Origin: a virus
Virus record (IMG/VR): IMGVR_UViG_3300043772_001507
Location: 1-20,929 of that record
Direction: 5' to 3' (one strand)
DNA: 20,929 bases
Positions 305-8,706 of the stretch are shown here, piece after piece. The notes below the pieces were generated by a model. That model was given only the letters and a program-made list of their open reading frames with translations. It did no database searches and was not told the DNA's origin. The translations under genes were made by a program, and so were the position numbers. The first letter of the stretch is position 1; each line of letters opens with the position of its first letter.

Positions 305-907
305 TTAATCCAAACTATTTGGTAGATATAATAGTGTTGGGTTCTTTTTTTGAATGTCTATTTCTGGATATTTTTCCTTTAGTGTCATCACATTGAACTT
401 ATCCGAAATAATGTGATATCCGTTTTTTGTTGGTATGATTCCATTAATTTTGTCTCTTATTGGGTCACATTTAACGTTAATAAAAGTTGCAACTTCCTCA
501 ATAAATGATTTTTCTTTTGTATCAATATCTACGACCCACCTTTTTTCTTGTGTTTTAATTTGCCCAACAACAGAATCAAATAAACCTTTTTGGTTTGATA
601 CACCGTCCCTAATACGTTCAGCAAGTGTCGCTAACATATTTAACGAAACATCTTTATGATTTTGTTTTTGAACATGTATATAACCTCTCGCCTTAAACAT
701 TTCACAAAGTTGTTTAATCTCATCATATCTTTTTTCTAAATATAGAATAGAATCAACACAATAAGTTTTAATTGTTCTTACTGATTGGTGATTGTCCCTT
801 TCACCTTCAGGTTGGTCCTTCTTTCTCTTGAAGACATATAACATGTAGAAGTCCCCCGACTCATTAAAATTTAATAAAGGTTTTATTAAATCTAAATTGT
901 CTATCAT
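305..907 (-). CDS. Unknown protein, weakly primase (AEP)-like
   Basis: 200 aa, not firmly recognised. The C-terminal half contains WVVDIDTKE (about residues 123-131) and, some 30 residues later, PTKNGYHII. A D-x-D strand followed by a G-x-H motif resembles motifs I and II of archaeo-eukaryotic primase/PrimPol folds, but motif III is not evident and the protein is short, so this is only a hint. The N-terminal half is charged and probably helical. Its start overlaps the stop of the RNA ligase gene by 4 nt (ATGA), which implies translational coupling with it. A nucleotidyl-transfer or RNA-repair accessory role would fit the neighbours (inference). Confidence 0.5.
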   Translation of the reverse strand: MIDNLDLIKPLLNFNESGDFYMLYVFKRKKDQPEGERDNHQSVRTIKTYCVDSILYLEKRYDEIKQLCEMFKARGYIHVQKQNHKDVSLNMLATLAERIRDGVSNQKGLFDSVVGQIKTQEKRWVVDIDTKEKSFIEEVATFINVKCDPIRDKINGIIPTKNGYHIISDKFNVMTLKEKYPEIDIQKKNPTLLYLPNSLD

Positions 908-1959
908 AATTTTCTAAATTTTGGTTTTAGTGCACTCCATATAATTTTATCATAATCTTTACCATCCCACATCGCAAACATAATTGCCTTTACGATAGGT
1001 TCTTTATCTTTAATAAATTCTGCAAACTCTTTTTTAGTAGGTTCAGGATCCTTATCCCCATATTTACCGTATCTAAAATAATCATAAGTTTTACCTAGTT
1101 GGTTATAATATTGATACCATTGGTATCTTAATTCACTAACATACAATTTAATTTTATTATAAAATTCATCAGGTACATCTTTAATTAAATCTTCTATATT
1201 ACCACCAGTAGATAATATTTCCCATACAGTAGTTGTTGATATGTTTGTCATTATCTTATGTAACCTAAGATACTCCTCACCCTTAATTTTCATTCTGTCA
1301 CCGTTAGAAAATTTAACCACATAACCTTCTTCATCATCTTTTATAATATTTTTCAGAGTAGTATAATCAGTTATACCATCATATTTCTTCACTACCCTAA
1401 ATCCTATATTGGAAATTAAATTTTTTAATCTGATATCATTCCCATCACTATATAAGTCAACTTCATACCCACTTTCAGTATTTATCATCCCTAATAATAC
1501 AACATCCTCAAAATCGTAATCCACTACTATTCTATTGTCATTGTATATTATTTCAAATAAATAAGTATAATCTTTATGTAGTTTATTATACTCATATTTT
1601 TGTAACATTTCAAAACCCTTTACGGATTGTTCTGAAGTGAACGATCCTCTGGTTGCGAACACCCATTCATCCTTATAATTAAAAAGAATACCTAGTGACC
1701 CATCCATTTTATCATAAACATCAAATTCTGATGTAGGGGTATGAACACCCTCTTCCATATTAAAGAATTTCTTAAAAGGTCTGGCAACAATATCTCCATT
1801 AGAATTTGTTACTAAACCTCTACACATTAAAGTTATATCGTCCCATAAAGATTCGTATTGTACTTTTTCACTATAGTTCCATATAATCAAATCTAAATAA
1901 GAATGGGTTTGTTTATATAACAAACCCTTATCATAATATTCATTTAGTTTTTCTTTCAT
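904..1959 (-). CDS. RNA ligase, T4 Rnl1-like
   Basis: 351 aa, close to the length of T4 RNA ligase 1. Nucleotidyltransferase motif I is KMDGS with K84 as the likely AMP-accepting lysine. It is preceded by the family's RGLV (47-50) and RPFKKFFN (60-67) blocks. Motif IIIa is LFEI (about 134), motif IV EEGYVVKF (210-217), motif V MKIKGEEY (about 223). The family seals 5'-phosphate to 3'-OH RNA ends with ATP; in T4 it repairs tRNA cut by host anticodon nucleases. The gene overlaps both neighbours by 4 nt, so it belongs to a coupled operon with the large metallophosphoesterase. With 27 tRNA genes nearby, tRNA repair is the likely job. It could also ligate unusual tRNA precursors (inference). Confidence 0.9.
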   Translation of the reverse strand: MKEKLNEYYDKGLLYKQTHSYLDLIIWNYSEKVQYESLWDDITLMCRGLVTNSNGDIVARPFKKFFNMEEGVHTPTSEFDVYDKMDGSLGILFNYKDEWVFATRGSFTSEQSVKGFEMLQKYEYNKLHKDYTYLFEIIYNDNRIVVDYDFEDVVLLGMINTESGYEVDLYSDGNDIRLKNLISNIGFRVVKKYDGITDYTTLKNIIKDDEEGYVVKFSNGDRMKIKGEEYLRLHKIMTNISTTTVWEILSTGGNIEDLIKDVPDEFYNKIKLYVSELRYQWYQYYNQLGKTYDYFRYGKYGDKDPEPTKKEFAEFIKDKEPIVKAIMFAMWDGKDYDKIIWSALKPKFRKL

Positions 1960-3811: not shown

Positions 3812-4546
3812 TTATAATTCAAAGGTAGGTTTTAACCATAGTCCTCTACCAAATACCAACGATGTAAACCCTGGCAACCATTCTTCGGTTTCTCTAAATA
3901 GTTCCAATGTTAGTACAGTATCATGTTTCATCATTTTTAAAACTTCTTCTCTAATTCTTTCAGCGGAAACTACCTTTTCTAGTTTTTCCAAAATAAGTGG
4001 ATTCTTCATCGCCTCAAAAATATCTTGATGAATTTCAAAATCTTTTGTAATTCCAAATCTCAGAGCCCTTAAAAATCTTAAAGGATCATCTAACATTGTT
4101 TGTTCAGCAGGTAAAGGAGTTTTTAGGAGTCTTGCCTCTAAATGTCCTTTACCTCCAAATAAATCTATTAGATTACCATCGTAGTCAATTGCCATCGCAT
4201 TAAGAGTGAAGTCTCTTCTGATAAGATCATCTTCTAGTGTACCTAATTCTAAAATAGGTTGTCTAGTACCTTCTTTATAACCTACTTCTTTTCTAGCCAA
4301 TACAAAGTCCGCAACCAATCCTTCATTCATATCACCTTTTGGGAATTTAGCCCTAATTGTAAACATTTCTGGTGTAGATAGGAATATCGTAAATTCCTTG
4401 TGTGTTAACCAATCTGTCATTATTTGGAATCCTTCTTCCACAGTTCTATCTATATTATCTAGAACAAATGTGAAGTCAATATCCTTAGATTCAATACCTA
4501 AGATACCATCTCTAACACAACCTCCTACTTTATATATCTGCGGCAT
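3812..4546 (-). CDS. CCA-adding / poly(A) polymerase-type tRNA nucleotidyltransferase
   Basis: 244 aa class II head-and-neck enzyme. It shows GGCVRD (8-13), catalytic KDIDF (21-25, D22 and D24), RRDFTLNAMAID (110-121), DDPLRFLRALRF (153-164, base recognition) and AERIREE (195-201). The family adds CCA, or A tails, to RNA 3' ends. It is shorter than typical bacterial enzymes of about 400 aa because the C-terminal body and tail are largely missing, as in compact phage forms. Sequence alone does not separate CCA-adding from poly(A) activity. It lies just downstream of tRNA locus 1, and only 3 of 27 tRNA genes encode a full CCA end, so CCA addition to phage tRNAs is the natural reading (inference). 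Confidence 0.9.
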   Translation of the reverse strand: MPQIYKVGGCVRDGILGIESKDIDFTFVLDNIDRTVEEGFQIMTDWLTHKEFTIFLSTPEMFTIRAKFPKGDMNEGLVADFVLARKEVGYKEGTRQPILELGTLEDDLIRRDFTLNAMAIDYDGNLIDLFGGKGHLEARLLKTPLPAEQTMLDDPLRFLRALRFGITKDFEIHQDIFEAMKNPLILEKLEKVVSAERIREEVLKMMKHDTVLTLELFRETEEWLPGFTSLVFGRGLWLKPTFEL

Positions 4547-6651: not shown

Positions 6652-6701
6652 GTACTTGGAGCGGGACTTGAACCCGCACGGGCAATTGCCCACAAGATTT
6701 T

Positions 6702-7396
6702 CTTACCACTATAGTTTTCACTACCACTTTCGTGTTTGTGGTCTGGACTATACCTTAACCAATATCAAACGACTTAGGTTCTCCGTGTCTAGTCTCTACA
6801 CCTTCCTAATTTCTTAGGCTTGGCTCGGTATTCCCATTTTACAGGGTTCACCGAATTTACGGAGTTCTACTCAAAGAGTTTCCCCTCTGGCACTCATATT
6901 TTTTCCCCGATAATTATCGGTGAATGAATGACAGTTAGGACATAACAATTGTATATTTTCAATTCTATTATCAAACCTATTTCCATTCACATGATGAAGT
7001 TCTAATGGGATTTTATCTCCTAACCATTCAATACACCCACAAATCTCACAAATGTGTTCCTTATAACCTAACTTTAACAACTGTTTTTTCAATTGAAAAG
7101 TGGATATAGGTAAACCACTCGAATATGTGGAGTGTTCAACTAATTTACTTGAGATGTCTTTTTGTTTAGACCATTTTTTACCTTTATTCCACAACATTCC
7201 GTGAAAATGTGAGGTATCAATCTCAAATTTTTTAATTCTTGTCTTGATGTTTTCGTAATTCCCCCCAGCCTCTTTAAGACCTAATTTTTGTAAAACTTGT
7301 CTTATTGAACCAGATTCCTTCACTATCAGTTCTAAACTTTCTTTTGTATACTTCTTATTCATATTTATAAATATAAACGGAATACAAAAAAGATTT
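6702..7396 (-). ncRNA. Group I self-splicing intron in tRNA-Leu(UAA)
   Basis: 695 nt. P1: exon ACTT plus intron AAA pairs with TTTGAGT (6869-6875), with a U-G pair at the 5' splice site. P3: CTCCGT (6859-6864) with ACGGAG (6781-6786). P4: CGGT/ACCG. P5: CCC/GGG. P6: CCTAA/TTAGG. P7: GACTA (6790-6794) with TAGTC (6746-6750). P8: AACC/GGTT. P9 hairpins carry two GAAA tetraloops (CAC GAAA GTG and TAGT GAAA ACTA). The terminal G at 6702 precedes the 3' exon. The core string GAGCCAAGCC is as in cyanobacterial tRNA-Leu introns. An HNH gene fills the P1 loop. Complete, and likely active. Confidence 0.93.
6871..7362 (-). CDS. HNH homing endonuclease inside the intron
   Basis: 163 aa starting at MNKKYTK; the longer reading frame upstream is tRNA exon sequence. 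The N-terminal part (6-52) resembles the DNA-binding repeat of phage HNH enzymes (SIRQVLQKLGLKEAGGNY). The nuclease has CEIC (105-108), LHHVNGN (122-128), the downstream NRIENIQLL helix and CPNC (141-144), a complete zinc-bound HNH site. It cuts DNA, presumably an intronless tRNA-Leu allele, so that the intron is copied in. The ORF lies in the P1 loop and its TGA stop overlaps the internal guide strand, so RNA splicing and protein coding share bases. No promoter of its own is visible. Confidence 0.92.
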   Translation of the reverse strand: MNKKYTKESLELIVKESGSIRQVLQKLGLKEAGGNYENIKTRIKKFEIDTSHFHGMLWNKGKKWSKQKDISSKLVEHSTYSSGLPISTFQLKKQLLKLGYKEHICEICGCIEWLGDKIPLELHHVNGNRFDNRIENIQLLCPNCHSFTDNYRGKNMSARGETL

Positions 7397-7431
7397 AAGT
7401 CTGGCGTGTCTACCAATTCCACCATCCAAGC

Positions 7432-7619: not shown

Positions 7620-7700
7620 TAGTCAGGACAGGATTCGAACCTGTGTAATTTCATCTCAAGTCTAAGACTCGGAATTACTGTAACTGCCCAGCACCTGACT
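7620..7700 (-). ncRNA. tRNA-like RNA with extended anticodon arm
   Basis: Acceptor AGTCAGG/CCTGACT, TG, D-arm CTG GGCAGTTA CAG, T-arm ACAGG TTCGAAT CCTGT and discriminator A plus C-A are all good. The anticodon region is a long arm: GTAATT/AATTAC at its base and CGAGTC TTA GACTTG at its tip. If read as a tRNA, the 7-nt loop would be TCTTAGA, giving TTA (ochre) but with C33 instead of U33. Its 3' 27 nt equal those of the RNA at 5229. It lies upstream of the locus 1 promoter, so it would be transcribed with the SPFH gene. Confidence 0.5.
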
Positions 7701-7758: not shown

Positions 7759-8706
7759 TTATTTAATGTTTAGGAATGTTCCGCCACCACTAGTAACAGT
7801 AGTAGGTAATTTACCATCCCATTTTTGTGCCTTTAAGAACTCAACATATAAAGGTGTAATCTCTTTTTGTTTAAGTTTCATAGTTAAGGCTGCTGCCTGT
7901 GCGTCAATTACTGATTTAGCAGAATCACCTTTTGCTATCGCAATTTTTTCTTGTGCTTCGGCTTCCGCCACTAACTTTCTTTGCATCGCCGCCTGTGCCT
8001 CTTGTACCGCCTTTGTCTTACCCTCAATTGCTTGTTGTAATGATTTAGGTGGGATGATATTAGTTCTTAACTGAGAAACAGTAAACCATTTAGACACTCT
8101 CTTATTACATTCTGTAATGATTGCCGATTCAAACTCTTCTCGTTTATTAAAAATTGCATCAACATCCCAACGGTTTGCTACATCATTAACAGATGAAACG
8201 ATTGCGTTCTTTAACCAACCCTGTTCCACTTCTTTAATATCTAAACGAAGGTTAACGAACATATCACCAATCGCATCTTCCCTAAGTGAATAGTTAAAGG
8301 AAGGTTTAATAGTTGCTGCAAATCCACCTTTAGTAATTACGGTTTGTGCATCGTATTCGATATGTTGTTGATACAATGGGAACTCTTTAACTTGTTCTGT
8401 CCAATCATTGTAAACTACCCAACCAGTCTTATACTGATAACTAGAAACCCCTCGTTCCGATCCAGTAAGGTTAACTTTTAAACCTTTGTTACCTGCATCG
8501 ATTCTCTCAATCGCAAATGGTTGTATCAATGCAACCAAAAAGGATAAAACTAAAACCCCAATAGGTTTAACTAACCATTTTGGGTTAAAATTTTCACTAT
8601 CATCACCCCATCGATTTTTTCCTGTAATATACATTACATCTTTTGTTGTAAACGCAATGAATACTGCAGATACTAACCCAATAATAAAAATAATAAATCC
8701 AATCAT
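7759..8706 (-). CDS. SPFH/Band 7 (prohibitin-stomatin-like) membrane protein
   Basis: 315 aa. Two N-terminal hydrophobic segments (about 1-22 and 46-65) anchor it. The SPFH domain follows (about 67-215), with typical elements GNKGLKVNL, a long beta region, and RTNIIPPKSLQQAIEGK. Next is an Ala/Glu/Lys-rich coiled coil (about 226-285: AQAAMQRKLVAEAEAQEKIAIAKGDS) that drives ring assembly in this family. Related proteins organise membrane microdomains and control FtsH-type proteases. In a phage it may protect or remodel the host membrane (inference). Coupled by a 4-nt overlap to the small membrane gene upstream. Confidence 0.88.
   Translation of the reverse strand: MIGFIIFIIGLVSAVFIAFTTKDVMYITGKNRWGDDSENFNPKWLVKPIGVLVLSFLVALIQPFAIERIDAGNKGLKVNLTGSERGVSSYQYKTGWVVYNDWTEQVKEFPLYQQHIEYDAQTVITKGGFAATIKPSFNYSLREDAIGDMFVNLRLDIKEVEQGWLKNAIVSSVNDVANRWDVDAIFNKREEFESAIITECNKRVSKWFTVSQLRTNIIPPKSLQQAIEGKTKAVQEAQAAMQRKLVAEAEAQEKIAIAKGDSAKSVIDAQAAALTMKLKQKEITPLYVEFLKAQKWDGKLPTTVTSGGGTFLNIK

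Follow-up and report, generated by a model that had tools for sequence, protein, structure and literature searches.

A probably mobile group I intron with an HNH endonuclease gene in a phage-borne tRNA-Leu(UAA) gene

A tRNA-Leu(UAA) gene on the minus strand of an IMG/VR virus record (the whole stretch analysed, 20,929 bases, is called the window) is interrupted by what we regard, with a probability of roughly 0.83, as a composite mobile group I intron, in which a ribozyme carries an HNH endonuclease gene inside its P1 loop. Sequence comparisons document the anatomy of this element, its insertion site, alleles of the gene that lack it, selection on the endonuclease, endonuclease turnover among related introns, and chromosomal relatives with intact as well as broken endonuclease genes. 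The tRNA-Leu(UAA) intron is the textbook example of an old, vertically inherited intron, and our results suggest that this "ancient" intron can also travel on phages as a mobile element.

Results

A group I intron interrupts a phage tRNA-Leu(UAA) gene

The window contains 26 plain tRNA genes. With introns allowed, ARAGORN called tRNA-Leu(taa) at exactly 7431-6653 on the minus strand and placed a 695-nt intron immediately 3' of U34 (gene position 35); the joined exons, 84 nt in length, were again called as tRNA-Leu(UAA) (Table 1). In an Infernal-type check for a group I intron, proposed with the original prediction for this DNA, the Rfam model RF00028 matched positions 6937-6721 with 51.3 bits, above its gathering score of 50 (E value of 7.9e-12 in the locus-restricted scan and of 3.3e-14 in the genome search), whereas a scan of the whole window against Rfam at gathering thresholds did not detect the intron.

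Helices P1, P2 and P3 to P8, a three-way P9, a U.G pair at the 5' splice site and a terminal G all fit. The guide sequence GAGU (6895-6892) pairs with exon ACUU (7400-7397) in such a way that U34 (7397) lies opposite G 6895, forming the splice-site U.G, and both this pair and the intron-final G are conserved. In an alignment of 32 introns, 95.2% of the cells of a 50-pair structure were paired, and double changes were detected in 36 of the 50 pairs, adding up to 355 cells compared to a mean of 108 in shuffled alignments. None of 500 shuffles reached any of the measures used, and slid controls were only 30–43% paired. Moreover, the helices of the P3/P7 pseudoknot core were both 100% paired in the 32 introns, with double changes. 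The P5 hairpin is short and lacks a P5abc extension, and the intron aligns with cyanobacterial tRNA-Leu introns, which we take to belong to subgroup IC3; the window intron RNA thus appears to be IC3-like.

The original prediction of a group I intron in a phage tRNA-Leu(UAA) gene is therefore borne out by the RF00028 match, the ARAGORN call, the covariation and the IMG/VR source record, and the P1 and P3-P9 helices, terminal G and exon borders that it had proposed agree with the structure, the 32-intron covariation and the empty-site alleles described below. Its claim that core strings of the intron are those of the cyanobacterial family held in part: "GAGCCAAGCC" was invariant in 32 of 32 aligned introns, but it is common to the whole class of tRNA introns and not specific to cyanobacteria.

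Table 1. Features of the window in and around the split tRNA-Leu(UAA) gene.
Feature	Position	Strand	Evidence
Whole tRNA-Leu(UAA) gene with intron	6653..7431	-	ARAGORN, introns allowed
5' exon, 35 nt, last base U34	7397..7431	-	ARAGORN; intronless alleles L348, L349
3' exon, 49 nt, starts A35 A36, CCA not encoded	6653..6701	-	ARAGORN
Group I intron, 695 nt, final G at 6702	6702..7396	-	Rfam, ARAGORN, intronless alleles
HNH endonuclease gene, 163 aa, P1 loop	6871..7362	-	phrog_10822, E 1.2e-47; invariant residues; dN/dS
Internal guide sequence GAGU, P1 3' strand	6892..6895	-	Sequence; GAG invariant in 32 introns
P2 hairpin CAGAGGG-GAAA-CUCUUUG	6872..6889	-	Covariation alignment
P3, 5' strand CUCCGU (3' strand ACGGAG, 6786-6781)	6859..6864	-	6/6 pairs covary, 100% paired
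P4 UUCGGU/ACCGAG (6855-6850 with 6829-6824) and P5 CCC/GGG (6846-6844 with 6835-6833)	6824..6855	-	Covariation alignment
P6 and P6a, GAAA loop	6801..6823	-	Covariation alignment
P7 GACUA/UAGUC (6794-6790 with 6750-6746), guanosine-binding helix	6746..6794	-	100% paired, 32 introns
P8 (6780-6777 with 6760-6757); P7 encloses P3' and P8	within 6746..6794	-	32 introns
P9 three-way junction, P9.1 and P9.2, two GAAA-capped arms	6705..6742	-	Covariation alignment
tRNA nucleotidyltransferase (phrog_24229)	3812..4546	-	Context
RNA ligase (phrog_562)	904..1959	-	Context
Neighbour gene (phrog_200), by which close empty-site relatives were identified	7759..8706	-	PHROG

The tRNA nucleotidyltransferase encoded in the window could be a source of the CCA that is missing from the split tRNA. 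Together with the RNA ligase gene it adjoins the large tRNA array, and the two may constitute a tRNA repair set. A tRNA-like sequence was also observed on the minus strand at 7620-7700, scoring 26 bits against an Rfam tRNA cut-off of 29; its acceptor and T arms are normal, and its anticodon region is odd and extended.

Introns at the same site are found in many phages

Relatives of the intron were collected by two pattern scans and from records found by similarity. Introns at the same tRNA-Leu(UAA) site were detected in 70 viral contigs, corresponding to 64 distinct introns, of which 41 were shorter than 300 nt and 23 longer than 500 nt. Among the phage-database records, the 735-kb LR756501.1 holds a 205-nt intron at this site and the 595-kb LR756511.1 a 700-nt intron with an HNH gene, and in the isolated jumbo Agrobacterium phage Atu_ph07 the site is occupied by a 278-nt intron, in a tRNA-Leu(UAA) gene left unannotated in its record. 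Related cores were located beside a split capsid gene in Pelagibacter phage HTVC120P and beside DNA polymerase and helicase genes in crAss-like phages. Cellular relatives in tRNA-Leu(UAA), tRNA-Arg(CCU) and other tRNA genes occur frequently in Alphaproteobacteria and Cyanobacteria, and tRNA-Leu(UAA) genes with introns were found in Bacteroidota and other bacteria.

At some loci the gene was labelled tRNA-Ser(aga) or tRNA-Phe(aaa) by ARAGORN; these labels were rejected, the site being that of Leu-UAA with the junction shifted by 1–3 bases. Record IMGVR_UViG_3300034198_019339 (L041/L233) contains, besides its tRNA-Leu intron, a second group I intron at 55263-55460 (70.7 bits). In Microcoleus phage My-WqHQDG (L226:1313-1598), a tRNA-Arg(CCU) gene, already annotated as a tRNA-Arg of 286 nt, has a 213-nt insert after the anticodon that is probably another phage tRNA intron.

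The window intron groups with phage and Bacteroidales introns

The phylogeny proposed with the original prediction was built from 177 ribozyme cores over about 200 columns, with a bootstrap that had not settled. The window was placed in a clade of 34 rows (bootstrap 100, SH-aLRT 95), the size of which is a biased measure of frequency because the sampling of phages relied in part on a motif of this very clade. It comprises 29 phage introns, including that of the window, and five Bacteroidales chromosomal introns (L140, L211, L172, L132 and L127), which are nested among the phage introns (99/96, 100/92 and 98/85). A single clade of all Bacteroidota Leu introns was rejected by the AU test (p 0.003). 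The suggestion that phages may carry or spread this lineage among bacteria is supported in part, by the 70 viral contigs and by the position of the five Bacteroidales introns inside the phage clade, whereas the direction of transfer depends on the rooting, and monophyly of the phage introns alone within the clade was not rejected (AU test, p 0.118).

The 20 cyanobacterial Leu introns formed a clade of their own (100/99), with the window outside it, and mean core identity to the window was 76% for phage introns, 68% for alphaproteobacterial introns and 58% for cyanobacterial introns. Cyanobacteria are thus among the least similar groups, and this, together with the separate clade, does not sustain the specific tie to the cyanobacterial and plastid lineage that had been claimed for the window intron. 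Direct descent from a cyanobacterial or plastid tRNA-Leu intron, by way of a cyanobacterial phage, is for these reasons unlikely, even though the predicted cyanobacterial insertion point is correct (the exons read ..GACTT / AAAATC.. in the window and around the cyanobacterial introns alike), the three-way P9 layout is the same, and a grouping of the window clade with cyanobacteria, which would fit a sister relation of the two, was not rejected (AU test, p 0.51). Moreover, a 532-aa protein of the window is closest to proteins of Maribacter, Cellulophaga and Flavobacterium phages (45–47% identity), a likeness that speaks against a cyanobacterial phage and makes a Bacteroidota host likely.

The P1 loop encodes a conserved HNH endonuclease

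The gene absent from the original prediction is that of the HNH endonuclease, which fills the P1 loop in the interval from the 5' splice site to the guide sequence. The codons at its 3' end (ATG AGT GCC AGA GGG GAA ACT CTT TGA) overlap the guide and P2, and bases in this part of the gene would consequently serve protein and ribozyme at once. The catalytic residues H124, N136 and H145 and the zinc residues C105, C108, C141 and C144 were invariant in 15 HNH proteins, and dN/dS values of 0.03–0.11 in eight pairs (0.04–0.09 between the window and its relatives) revealed that the gene is under purifying selection. Comparison of the window protein with Pfam HNH models gave matches only below the cut-offs. 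Solved structures, searched by sequence as well as by fold, produced only weak matches; those of the fold search had Z ≤5.5, and several of them were HNH nucleases.

The location of an HNH gene in the P1 loop indicates that ribozyme and endonuclease probably form a composite, mobile element and not a passive intron. An HNH gene that is a dead or unrelated passenger, with the intron persisting by splicing alone, appears improbable, as its reading frame is open, its active-site residues are invariant and its dN/dS is low; such a scheme would nevertheless accommodate the independence of the ribozyme from the HNH and the abundance of sister introns, about 200 nt long, that lack an ORF, given that 41/64 of the viral introns are below 300 nt.

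Of 21 phage introns longer than 500 nt, 19 have a TATTTAT motif a short distance upstream of the HNH start (7374-7365 in the window), within the first 110 nt of the intron. The motif may be a promoter of the endonuclease gene, although the window is AT-rich and contains 18 copies of this 7-mer. When the region before the HNH gene was inspected for a promoter of the Bacteroides type (TTTG, about 20 bases, TAnnTTTG), none was found in the window, and a clear match was present in the chromosomal intron L140.

Endonuclease genes turn over and appear to decay on chromosomes

Three well-supported families (A, B and D) and a loose set C can be distinguished among the HNH proteins of the clade. Comparison of cores and endonucleases showed that the window and L080 have cores 90% identical and HNH proteins only 34% identical, in contrast to L305, for which the corresponding values are 91% and 92%. 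Likewise, L333 has an HNH gene and L318 has none, with cores that are 95% identical, and the core tree requires 13 changes of HNH state. As near-identical ribozymes have either no endonuclease or endonucleases of differing families, these genes must have been gained, lost or swapped repeatedly.

Among the Bacteroidales introns, L140 retains an intact homologous HNH gene in the same P1 loop, whereas that of L211 is frameshifted, and L172, L187 and L132 have remnants or none. Introns L140, L172 and L187 share flanks with homologues of mreC, a penicillin-binding protein and rodA, as read from their protein sequences, which indicates a chromosomal and not a prophage location. When 393 Bacteroidales genomes were searched for the P3 motif of the clade, the starting genome alone contained it, which indicates that copies on chromosomes are rare. 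These copies appear to be decaying descendants.

Two further arrangements were observed in relatives. The 964–967-nt introns L326 and L335 have an HNH frame of 277 aa that continues through much of the ribozyme core, and the added C-terminal region contains a CxxC zinc-finger-like and a helix-turn-helix-like stretch. In Salmonella phage Arash (L225:1310-1797), a free-standing related HNH gene overlaps a tRNA-Leu gene and adjoins an intronless tRNA-Leu(UAA); this arrangement would be compatible with an endonuclease that targets tRNA-Leu genes, at a stage either preceding or following its association with an intron.

Close relatives have the same tRNA gene without the intron

The nearest relatives of the window, as judged by the phrog_200 neighbour gene (87–88% identity), are L348, L349 and L350. 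In L348 and L349/L350 the tRNA order is Leu-Arg-Asp-Glu-Met as in the window, but the tRNA-Leu(UAA) gene is intronless. The joined exons of the window differ from these alleles by substitutions only and align without a gap, which fixes the exon borders and, in agreement with ARAGORN, confirms the predicted position of the intron between U34 and A35. The presence of the same tRNA without the intron also implies that the intron has moved independently of the tRNA, the two having separate histories. In any case, the empty-site alleles would fit intron gain or precise loss alike, the phages with empty sites differing from the window by many substitutions.

Such alleles largely refute the proposal that the intron is a passive passenger, acquired together with its exons when the phage captured a complete, already split tRNA-Leu gene from a host. 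Phages are known to acquire tRNA genes from their hosts, and tRNA-Leu(UAA) genes with introns do occur in Bacteroidota and other bacteria; with the same tRNA found intronless in the same array of close relatives, and with an HNH gene conserved by selection, capture has little probability. A degenerate, non-splicing insertion in a tRNA pseudogene is very improbable, since the C28.U42 mismatch, the single one in the anticodon stem, is also present in the intronless relatives and every catalytic helix pairs in spite of an Rfam score barely above the cut-off.

Discussion

The reading that we favour, a composite mobile intron, would operate as follows. By analogy with known systems, we infer guanosine-initiated splicing, for which the gapless match of the joined exons to the intronless alleles gives indirect evidence: with guanosine, the ribozyme (P1-P9) would excise itself from the precursor and ligate U34 to A35, and a functional tRNA would thus be made despite the insert. 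The P1-loop endonuclease would cleave tRNA-Leu(UAA) genes that lack the intron, close to or exactly at the insertion point, in co-infecting phages and occasionally in a bacterial chromosome, and repair of the cut allele from the intron-bearing copy would install the element there, in a repair-driven homing process. Within the clade, endonuclease genes in the P1 loop have been gained, lost or swapped time and again, and the copies on Bacteroidales chromosomes appear to be decaying.

A broader proposal, which we put forward tentatively and rate at somewhat below even odds, is that phages are both reservoir and vehicle of these introns, with HNH entry driving them into tRNA-Leu genes of phages and occasionally of bacteria (Bacteroidales), followed by HNH decay. 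The data hint at transfer in the direction from phage to bacterium. If true, the role of phages as vehicles would help to explain why the tRNA introns of bacteria, usually deemed ancient or vertically inherited, are patchy and often lack an ORF. In any case, phage copies with endonucleases, alleles without the intron, swapped endonucleases and copies that decay on chromosomes together outline a concrete route for horizontal spread of the tRNA-Leu(UAA) intron, for which the phage intron constitutes a testable system.

A practical consequence concerns annotation. The authors of tRNAscan-SE 2.0 state that the tool was not designed for group I intron detection (PMC8450103), and counts of phage tRNA genes miss split genes, such as the unannotated tRNA-Leu(UAA) of Atu_ph07.

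In their 2014 review, Hausner and colleagues noted that all phage introns observed until then were in protein genes, despite the many tRNA genes of phages (PMC3984707), and in a literature search, with subscription journals outside its scope, no description of a phage tRNA-Leu gene with a group I intron was found. The element described here resembles several known systems. It shares with the cyanobacterial and plastid tRNA-Leu(UAA) (IC3) introns the U34/A35 insertion, core sequence and P1-P9 layout, but the cyanobacterial introns fetched were 212–312 nt long and had no HNH gene, whereas that of the window is phage-borne, has an HNH gene in P1 and belongs to a separate clade. The tRNA introns of Proteobacteria (in Leu-UAA, Arg-CCU and others) are of the same class and, among the large cellular groups, come closest in mean core identity; those fetched differ in being chromosomal, mostly 200–260 nt in length and devoid of HNH genes. 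Phage group I introns with HNH genes, such as those of SPO1 (I-HmuI) and PhiPA3 (gp210, PMC11620839), show the same combination of intron and endonuclease in a phage, but reside in protein genes and not in a tRNA gene. Finally, the Bacteroidales introns L140, L211, L172, L132 and L127 have in common with the window intron the site and the clade, and in L140 a homologous HNH gene in the same loop, and differ in their location on chromosomes, with HNH genes often broken or lost. Mobile group I introns and tRNA-Leu introns are thus each known, and what is new is their combination, the host and the scale.
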